In this document: piece after piece, positions 18,583 to 23,661 of the stretch | Layout of the letters: each line of letters begins with the position of its first letter | Position numbering within the stretch: position 1 is the stretch's first letter | NCBI GenBank assembly: GCA_018402345.1 | Contig: JAGYIV010000014.1 | Coordinates: forward strand, 186,001 to 250,000 | Length of the DNA stretch: 64,000 nucleotides | Source: Terrimicrobiaceae bacterium | GTDB lineage: Bacteria; Verrucomicrobiota; Verrucomicrobiia; Chthoniobacterales; Terrimicrobiaceae | Reading direction: 5' to 3' | Made by a program: the position numbers and the translations under genes | The notes under the pieces: generated by a model | Told to the model about the DNA's origin: nothing | Databases searched by the model: none | Seen by the model: the letters and a program-made list of their open reading frames with translations, nothing else

Positions 18583-19002
18583 TTAAAAGTTTCCCGCAGA
18601 GGTGCAGAGGCGTGGAGGCGGTTCAACCAGTCCGTTGACGCAACGCGTGATGCCGGACTTCAGCACAGCCTCTCCGAAATTCAGCAGGTAGCCCAGCTTC
18701 AAGCCGGTCAGTCGCAGGGAGGTCTGCACCTGCTTCTTGTGTGCGGGGATCACCGCTTGAACTGACTTGAGTTCGATCAAAACCTTGTTTTTCACCACGA
18801 GGTTCGCGCGAAATCCCTCATCGAATGTGATGTTCCGGTATCTGATTTTGATGGGCACTTGCCTTGCCACATCAAGCCCGCGGGCTTTCAGGCAATCCGC
18901 CAGGATTACTTCGTGAACCGTCTCAAGCAGGCCCGGACCGGGTTCCCTGTGCACTTGAATTGCATCTTCGATCACGATTGTGCCGATGGCGTTTTCGTTC
19001 AT
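18583..19002 (-). CDS. GxxExxY protein, PD-(D/E)XK nuclease-fold, degenerate copy
   Basis: 139-aa member of the GxxExxY family (PDDEXK_3 fold). The name motif reads GLLETVH (G24, E27, H30), so the final Tyr is His. The nuclease core reads RANLVV with N67 where the family has Asp, then ELK with E77 and K79. Both substitutions suggest a weakened or inactive enzyme. The start is ATG 19002, nine bases after AGAGG; ATG 19011 is an alternative. The gene is bracketed by imperfect inverted repeats at 18593-18618 and 19012-19037: the right one supplies the ribosome-binding site and the left one encodes the last residues (RLCTSAG). It interrupts DUF1295 and the CFA-like gene. Confidence 0.82.
   Translation of the reverse strand: MNENAIGTIVIEDAIQVHREPGPGLLETVHEVILADCLKARGLDVARQVPIKIRYRNITFDEGFRANLVVKNKVLIELKSVQAVIPAHKKQVQTSLRLTGLKLGYLLNFGEAVLKSGITRCVNGLVEPPPRLCTSAGNF
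18593..18618. repeat. Left terminal inverted repeat of GxxExxY element A
   Basis: 26-bp sequence starting CCCGCAGAGGTGCAGAGGCG. The reverse complement of 19012-19037 starts CCCGCAGGGACGCAGAGTCG; the two agree at 20 of 26 positions by eye. This copy lies within the 3' end of the gene and encodes part of its C-terminus. Confidence 0.75.
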
Positions 19003-19011
19003 TGAATCCAT

Positions 19012-19037
19012 CCTCTGCGACTCTGCGTCCCTGCGGG
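19012..19037. repeat. Right terminal inverted repeat of GxxExxY element A
   Basis: 26-bp partner of 18593-18618, beginning CCTCTGCGACTCTGCG on the + strand. It occupies almost all of the gap between the DUF1295 stop (19041) and the GxxExxY start and carries AGAGG, the likely ribosome-binding site on the minus strand. Confidence 0.75.
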
Positions 19038-19040
19038 CGA

Positions 19041-23204: not shown

Positions 23205-23243
23205 TTTTTACATGGATTCACAGGATTTACAGGATGCTGGAGG
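23205..23243. repeat. Left terminal inverted repeat of GxxExxY element B
   Basis: 39-bp sequence beginning TTTTTACATGGATTCACAGG and containing two CAGGAT units. Its partner at 23626-23661, reverse-complemented, begins TTTTTACATGGATGGTCAGG and ends in the same ACAGGATG...GGAGG order with a 3-bp gap. The ATG of the GxxExxY gene lies inside this repeat. Confidence 0.78.
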
Positions 23244-23621
23244 GCTTCATACCGAACTGACCCGTCAGATTATTGGATGTTCCTTTGATGTGTTGAATGA
23301 ATTGGGTGCGGGGTTTTGGAGTCGGTTTACGAAAAAGCACTTCACATCGCCCTTCTTGAATCCGGCCTTGCCGTCGAGCGGCAGAAACCCATTGAAGTGC
23401 TGTTTCGATCGCAAGTCGTTGGCGATTTTTACGCCGATCTTTTTGTTGAGGGGAAGGTTCGGATCGAGCTGAAGGCCGTCAAAGCAATCGCTCCCGAGCA
23501 CCAAGCCCAAGTCATCAACTACCTGAATGCGACTGGTGTTTCCGTTGGCCTCCTGATCAATTTCGGAAACCCCCGTTTGGAATACAAAAAGATTCACCCG
23601 ATCCCAAACCGCTCAAAGTAA
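23212..23621 (+). pseudogene. GxxExxY protein, PD-(D/E)XK nuclease-fold, frameshifted
   Basis: Joining two frames gives a 136-aa GxxExxY protein. The name motif GFLESVY is intact (G34, E37, Y40), and the nuclease core shows D76 in YADLFVE and E86/K88 in IELKAV. As sequenced, the frame breaks at a run of four Ts (23314-23317), where five would restore LESVYE. The context is not a canonical in-frame slippery heptamer, so this is a mutation or consensus error rather than obvious programmed frameshifting. The ATG lies within the left inverted repeat, so the repeat encodes the first ~11 residues. Located between glpD and the CFA synthase. Confidence 0.8.
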
Positions 23622-23625
23622 CCTT

Positions 23626-23661
23626 CCTCCATCCTGTTGATCCTGACCATCCATGTAAAAA
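23626..23661. repeat. Right terminal inverted repeat of GxxExxY element B
   Basis: 36-bp partner of the left repeat, starting five bases after the GxxExxY stop (CCTCCATCCTGTTGATCCTG...) and ending in CATGTAAAAA. The outer 13 bp TTTTTACATGGAT are identical in both copies. Confidence 0.78.

Follow-up and report, generated by a model that had tools for sequence, protein, structure and literature searches.

The RAYT of a REPIN/RAYT system is a chromosomal, single-copy enzyme gene that adjoins a repeat dispersed as inverted pairs, and the accessible text of the two reports drawn on here describes a repeat type that matches the enzyme, an intergenic location and REP termini that may provide stop codons (PMC3116915, PMC3733652). 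The GxxExxY genes considered here resemble these systems, as far as those excerpts describe them, in the placement of an enzyme gene by a dispersed inverted-pair repeat, in a repeat type that goes with the enzyme and in being intergenic. There are two differences. The GxxExxY enzyme is assigned to the PD-(D/E)XK group by its PF13366 match and modelled fold, not to the Y1 HUH (IS200-like) transposases; it fails the defining feature of a RAYT and we reject that identity. In addition, GxxExxY arms usually consist of three tandem units and layers of different units nest.

The models PF13366 (PDDEXK_3) and TIGR04256 describe a protein family, not an element. GxxExxY is used as a gene label in the available portions of PMC8934634 and PMC12085832. 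A literature search covering titles and abstract openings found neither a description of repeats tied to GxxExxY genes nor a function given for PF13366. The Rpn (YhgA-like) nucleases also have a PD-(D/E)XK fold, and we know of no Rpn genes with flanking arms of the GxxExxY kind. They form a separate Pfam family, PF04754 as opposed to PF13366, and excerpts of the relevant papers present them as widespread bacterial nucleases tied to recombination (PMC5350276, PMC10327210).

The window, a stretch of 64,000 nucleotides from a Terrimicrobiaceae bacterium (contig JAGYIV010000014.1, positions 186,001 to 250,000), contains a frameshifted GxxExxY nuclease gene of PF13366/TIGR04256, gene B, at positions 23212 to 23621 of the plus strand. 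The original prediction was that inverted repeats bracket this gene, and they do so at a level far above chance. The left arm (23205 to 23244, plus strand) and the inverted right arm (23622 to 23661, minus strand) are 40 nt each, 80% complementary and separated by 377 nt, and their outer 13 nt, TTTTTACATGGAT, are identical. The pair has an inverted-repeat score of 40, whereas the best of 5000 simulated pairs reaches 26; none of 1665 other window positions of the same geometry attains 40, and the maximum there is 25. Inspection by eye gives three units per arm, the outer one altered (ACATGGAT) and the remaining two ACAGGAT-like. On the left these are ACATGGAT at 23210 to 23217, then ACAGGAT at 23220 to 23226 and again at 23229 to 23235; the minus-strand units on the right are ACATGGAT, TCAGGAT and ACAGGAT. 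The two CAGGAT units described earlier for each repeat are therefore present, as members of a set of three. The start codon was placed inside the left repeat, and the ATG of the upstream open reading frame, at 23212, does fall there.

Gene B is split over two frames. Its PF13366 match covers positions 23292 to 23591 with one stop inside the matched frame. The readable downstream part (23316 to 23621, plus strand, 101 amino acids) includes the D/E/K positions and in profile searches matches PF13366 with E 7.5e-30 (104.1 bits against a cut-off of 22) and TIGR04256 with E 4e-31 (107.8 bits against a cut-off of 35), scores that place gene B in the family; the upstream frame has no match to either model. 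Intact copies of the family occur elsewhere. The nuclease residues and the GFLESVY motif had both been called intact. The D/E/K residues are carried by the second frame, and GFLESVY is preserved in letters only, being itself divided between the two frames. The predicted break is located at this motif, in a run of T in an assembled genome, and may therefore be a sequencing error; a real frameshift and an error are both possible.

Between the arms only PF13366 was detected and no known transposase family was found. The neighbouring genes, named by reading and not by family search, we take to be glpD and a cfa-like gene. The further genomic copies of the exact repeat that the original prediction looked for are absent. 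With no mismatch, the 13-mer TTTTTACATGGAT occurs in the window's genome only in the two arms of gene B, and allowing one mismatch gives six matches. Solitary repeats, also proposed, do exist as solo palindromes in relatives and in other phyla, but none carries the exact repeat of gene B in its own genome. Across the genus the glpD side was matched in five of 16 genomes; these do not preserve the junction with the neighbouring gene, and no empty site for gene B was found. The best protein matches of gene B are at loci L076, L055 and L059, and the units of L076 and L059 are of ACAGGAT type, like those of gene B. Since its exact repeat has no other copy in the window's genome, gene B looks like a lone relic, an isolated and decayed member of the family without solos of that repeat. 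Terminal inverted repeats are bound to the gene in gene B and in its relatives, where inverted arms are general, and in this sense the repeats do belong to the gene. It is not TTTTTACATGGAT itself that is conserved but the inverted arrangement of several units, the unit varying with the lineage of the protein.

A second PF13366 gene of the window, gene A (L049, G000:C8:204643-204987), is at 18643 to 18987 on the minus strand. CGCAGAG-like units can be picked out by eye at 18592 to 18618 (plus strand) and, inverted, at 19012 to 19038 (minus strand), and this pair scores 22, which is not above shifted controls. The genes downstream of A and B, both presumably cfa-like from reading, are related to each other with 34% identity over 73 residues. 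The window's genome has six PF13366 genes. Five display by eye an arm pair with a unit specific to each, namely CACRGAG, ACAGAAT with an outer ACAGGAT layer, CGCAGAT, ACAGGAT and CGCAGAG; the arms of L044, like those of gene A, are visible in this way and score 23, not above shifted controls. The sixth gene, L048 (G000:C6:96697-97032), is embedded in a CACGAAT palindrome array, with four such palindromes, their loops alike, around the gene. At L046 (G000:C10:281667-282002) a complete CGCAGAT palindrome stands on each side instead of a single arm. Two solo palindromes were seen in 390 kb scanned of this genome, both beside L046. Of thirteen further regions with CACRGAG arms, three hold a palindrome and ten have a best hairpin that is not built of units.

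Is the architecture peculiar to this genome? PF13366 was the profile used to locate the loci in relatives and in the phylum. The relatives sample took the best 80 of the 95 matches listed, leaving out the 15 weakest, mostly fragments, and with four of the 80 short of flank 76 were scored; the family is present in 32 of the 39 genomes of this sample. The wider set held 80 loci of named genome contigs and one viral contig, of which seven lacked flank and 74 were scored. The arm score compares the upstream flank with the inverted downstream flank, and the controls were mispaired flanks and flanks shifted outward. The median is 42 for the relatives (n = 76) against 17 for mispaired (n = 608) and 18 for shifted flanks (maximum 27, n = 72), and 38 for the wider set (n = 74) against 18 (n = 740) and 18 (maximum 30, n = 280). 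Arms scoring above 30 flank 62 of the 76 loci from the order and 50 of the 73 genome loci from many phyla, while all 352 shifted controls scored 30 or less; the remaining 14 and 23 loci are without such arms. By phylum the counts are 12 of 16 in Pseudomonadota, 7 of 15 in Bacteroidota, 9 of 10 in Verrucomicrobiota, 8 of 9 in Planctomycetota, 4 of 6 in Acidobacteriota and 4 of 5 in Chloroflexota. The signal against mispaired flanks is weaker, because loci share units: these controls reach maxima of 60 and 58, and their 99th percentile is exceeded by only 32 of 76 and 18 of 74 true loci. The arms are usually three tandem units of about 7 nt, and the unit varies between loci and is common to both arms. 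A possible start codon is located in the left arm at 25 of 58 and 14 of 52 loci with a score of at least 30 and an open domain frame. Full palindromes are near 9 of the 80 relatives loci and 14 of the 81 in the wider set. An architecture of inverted arms around GxxExxY genes is general.

The unit could be extracted at 132 of 154 loci with flanks, a few of these extractions being spurious, and units ending in AG, AT and AA were classed as G, T and A, respectively; 25 labels were set by hand, some without an extracted unit. Grouping 161 loci by similarity of flanking genes gave 100 clusters, and one labelled locus from each left 85 (G 66, T 13, A 6). The search for the loci of the wider set used a profile built from G-type proteins, and their G majority is therefore by choice. 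On the protein tree of these 85 loci the G class is one side of a single branch (SH-aLRT 98), with none of 500 shuffles as low, and it is again a single branch when the rows changed by hand are removed (76 loci, SH-aLRT 97). The T class needs five changes, a number that none of 500 shuffles matched, and the A class also five, as low in 64 of 500 shuffles and so not clustered. Distances between units and between proteins are correlated (Mantel r 0.38, p 0.0005, n = 82). Two features of the protein follow the same division. An insertion of two residues near the C-terminus is present in all 66 G rows and in none of the 19 T/A rows, and helix position 90 is threonine or serine in 66 of 66 G rows and asparagine, glycine or histidine in 18 of the 19 others.

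Further loci conform. The plasmid-record loci represent ten places, nine of which were considered; four have arms above 30, all fitting the class of the nearest protein, those from Treponema and Fusobacteria fit by eye on short arms, and the remaining three show no arms. In genomes G195 and G196 the protein has no insertion and inspection by eye shows CACGGAT arms, in keeping with the class rule. Paralogues within one genome carry different units. On the tree the division of G from T/A is a single evolutionary split, compatible with recognition of the unit by the protein or with joint transmission of gene and arms. In both cases the arms go with the gene, because the genomic contexts differ. 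At L106 and L117 two genera share a genomic context, but the GxxExxY proteins there belong to separate clades and the units differ, as if one site had been used twice.

Sites that are filled in one species and empty in another were sought in the genus of G180 (L197, Thioalkalivibrio sp. ALJ16), where both flanks of one intergenic site were located in 15 of 30 species. Gene and arms are present in seven, with the PF13366 match truncated in G222, and absent in eight, which have a short spacer. The filled site of G180 reads ..CCGTGGTAA then TACAGGCCCTT.. and the empty site of G207 reads ..TGATACAGGCCCTT. No target-site duplication is seen between filled and empty sites, the flanks being only 70-85% alike, and the seven species with the filled site possibly form a single clade. 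The empty alleles of G207 and G203 have no unit and the palindrome is not kept. The G194 spacer (L299) has one CACGGAG word in a short palindrome, possibly an excision relic or chance. At a second site in the genus, too repetitive for junctions to be read, units occur in six of six gene-bearing and none of six gene-less species (420 nt, left flank only). No usable empty site was found in Pseudoalteromonas. In the window's own family the element parts two genes, presumably purS and purQ from reading, in two genera (L063, L070), and its own unit supplies the stop codon of the first gene. In a third genus the junction is clean: at L050 and L051 the purS- and purQ-like genes adjoin, and an element stands before what we take to be purL. 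The junction before the purL-like gene at L070 also has a hairpin repeat built on another word (GAAGGCTGAAG type). Given the filled and empty Thioalkalivibrio alleles and the differences at the purS/purQ junctions, sequence comparison indicates that gain or loss has happened at these sites.

These alleles bear on a homing-type explanation, in which a solo palindrome is cleaved at its loop by the nuclease and repair of the cut brings in a copy of the gene, making solos the targets and not the products. The gene does sit between its arms like an insert in an occupied site, genes at L046, L048, L143 and L198 are flanked by two full palindromes, and at one site the palindrome layers vary by species. 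Most empty alleles, however, have no palindrome, and dispersed copies are scarce without the gene, though targets should pre-exist. We consider the explanation unlikely. A homing endonuclease gene in the established sense was rejected as a candidate, as its empty allele should keep the palindrome.

Dispersed palindromes were also counted in Thioalkalivibrio. Three consecutive CACRRAG units are found 50 times in G180, 54 in G199, 160 in G200, 151 in G202, 61 in G204, 23 in G208 and 11 in G222. The count is zero in G195 and G196, which have the gene elsewhere with their CACGGAT arms, and 0 to 8 in 20 of 21 gene-less species; the reversed pattern is not found in any of the 30 species. The exception, G210, has 43 CACRRAG arms and no PF13366 match, for which gene loss or an incomplete assembly may account. 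A gene beside a repeat dispersed as inverted pairs is thus a property of the Thioalkalivibrio relatives and not of gene B. Among 57 regions sampled in the genus the best hairpin is built of named units in 45, with unrelated hairpins in 12, and at least two unit types are present in 38. Many regions are nested: CACGAAG encloses CACRGAG, or a layer of GGAAG lies within. Pairs of CACGAAG occur in 20 of 21 regions from the three species with CACGAAG arms and in 13 of 36 from the other four (p 7e-6). This distribution suggests action of the enzyme in trans and does not prove it, because the sampled species are relatives of one another and their regions were picked for resemblance to the G180 arm. 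In the phylum, where 84 of 144 sampled genomes have PF13366, the CACRGAG pattern occurs in 45 of the 84 gene-bearing and one of the 60 gene-less genomes (family-stratified p 0.002, family level p 0.06), the genes' own arms counting as hits. Nine of the 84 have more than two hits per gene.

Could the dispersed palindromes be REPINs of the ordinary sort, or different repeats, that owe their spread to RAYTs or to some other transposase, with GxxExxY genes only inserting into them? RAYTs are recorded in one Thioalkalivibrio strain in the accessible part of PMC3116915, and insertion sequences that target REPs are reported in that of PMC1525189. Set against this, the unit tracks the GxxExxY protein lineage across many contexts and phyla, and the Thioalkalivibrio copies mostly follow the presence of PF13366, in a comparison that covered PF13366. 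Of the explanations considered we hold this to be the least probable.

The distribution of the family invites a different suggestion, that the nuclease serves the host, the repeats being binding sites used in regulation or in upkeep of the chromosome, with the gene autoregulated through its arms and no mobility. The family is strongly chromosomal, with PF13366 in 8 of 72556 plasmid records, none of 50697 phage records and one viral contig, orthologous loci stay put within a genus, and copy number is low. This is difficult to reconcile with arms on both sides of the gene, with variable presence at one site, with different units at paralogues of one genome and with the broken state of some copies, and we think such a role improbable. 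One record labelled plasmid, from Sphingomonas, carries ribosomal protein genes; its GxxExxY gene (L260) is between fabD and fabG.

The enzyme was modelled from an intact relative. The best of five models, with a pLDDT of 89.3 (the others 82 to 68), has a PD-(D/E)XK-like fold. Superposition gives Z 9.7 and 3.4 Å over 96 aligned residues with Cas4 SSO0001, Z 8.2 and 2.2 Å over 84 with AF1548, and Z 7.1 and 3.0 Å over 83 with Hjc. The fold of Cas4 and the archaeal Hjc resolvase is thus similar to that of the GxxExxY model, but sequence identity is 10-20%. A Foldseek search with the model gave no match at E 0.001 or better, and a sequence search of the PDB none below E 0.5. PADLOC defence models gave weak matches only (E 0.003-0.016), and PHROG 1706, annotated as CRISPR/Cas associated, matches the intact relative (E 5.9e-5) and not gene B. 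The modelled resemblance to Cas4, AF1548 and Hjc would by itself show no function.

With arms that bracket the gene, a unit that agrees with the protein, filled and empty sites, and nested palindromes dispersed mostly where the gene is present, we judge it somewhat probable that GxxExxY genes are the enzyme-bearing form of a mobile palindrome family, REPIN/RAYT-like and using a PD-(D/E)XK nuclease. The element would consist of about three tandem units, the gene and about three inverted units, and the solo element of both arms around a short loop. We infer that the protein recognizes the unit; several protomers would probably occupy tandem sites spaced by about one turn of the DNA helix. It would join the arms, or an extruded cruciform, and then cut; repair or re-insertion would copy palindromes into new intergenic sites, often within the loop of an older palindrome. 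By such a route the protein would spread the palindromes, and the gene would stay low-copy while solos multiply, as with RAYT and REPIN.

A more far-reaching version of this mobile-element reading is offered tentatively, as a possibility that we would rate below an even chance. GxxExxY nucleases might define a pan-bacterial class of selfish palindromes that has no relation to HUH or DDE systems. A minimal PD-(D/E)XK enzyme would read a repeated 7-nt word by a protein-DNA code, and the palindromes would spread in part by insertion into the loops of earlier ones, which would build up nested layers. It is conceivable, to a like degree, that this code pairs the C-terminal insertion of two residues and threonine or serine at position 90, as against asparagine or glycine, with ..AG as against ..AT/..AA.

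The arrangement is found in many phyla of bacteria, with a repeat word that varies with the lineage of the enzyme, and suggests mobile DNA palindromes of a kind not yet described. The link with repeats would supply the GxxExxY proteins with a substrate and account for many intergenic palindromes, and it would provide a naturally occurring code by which a tiny nuclease is matched to a short word of DNA. If true, the REPIN/RAYT life style arose again with a second, unrelated enzyme.
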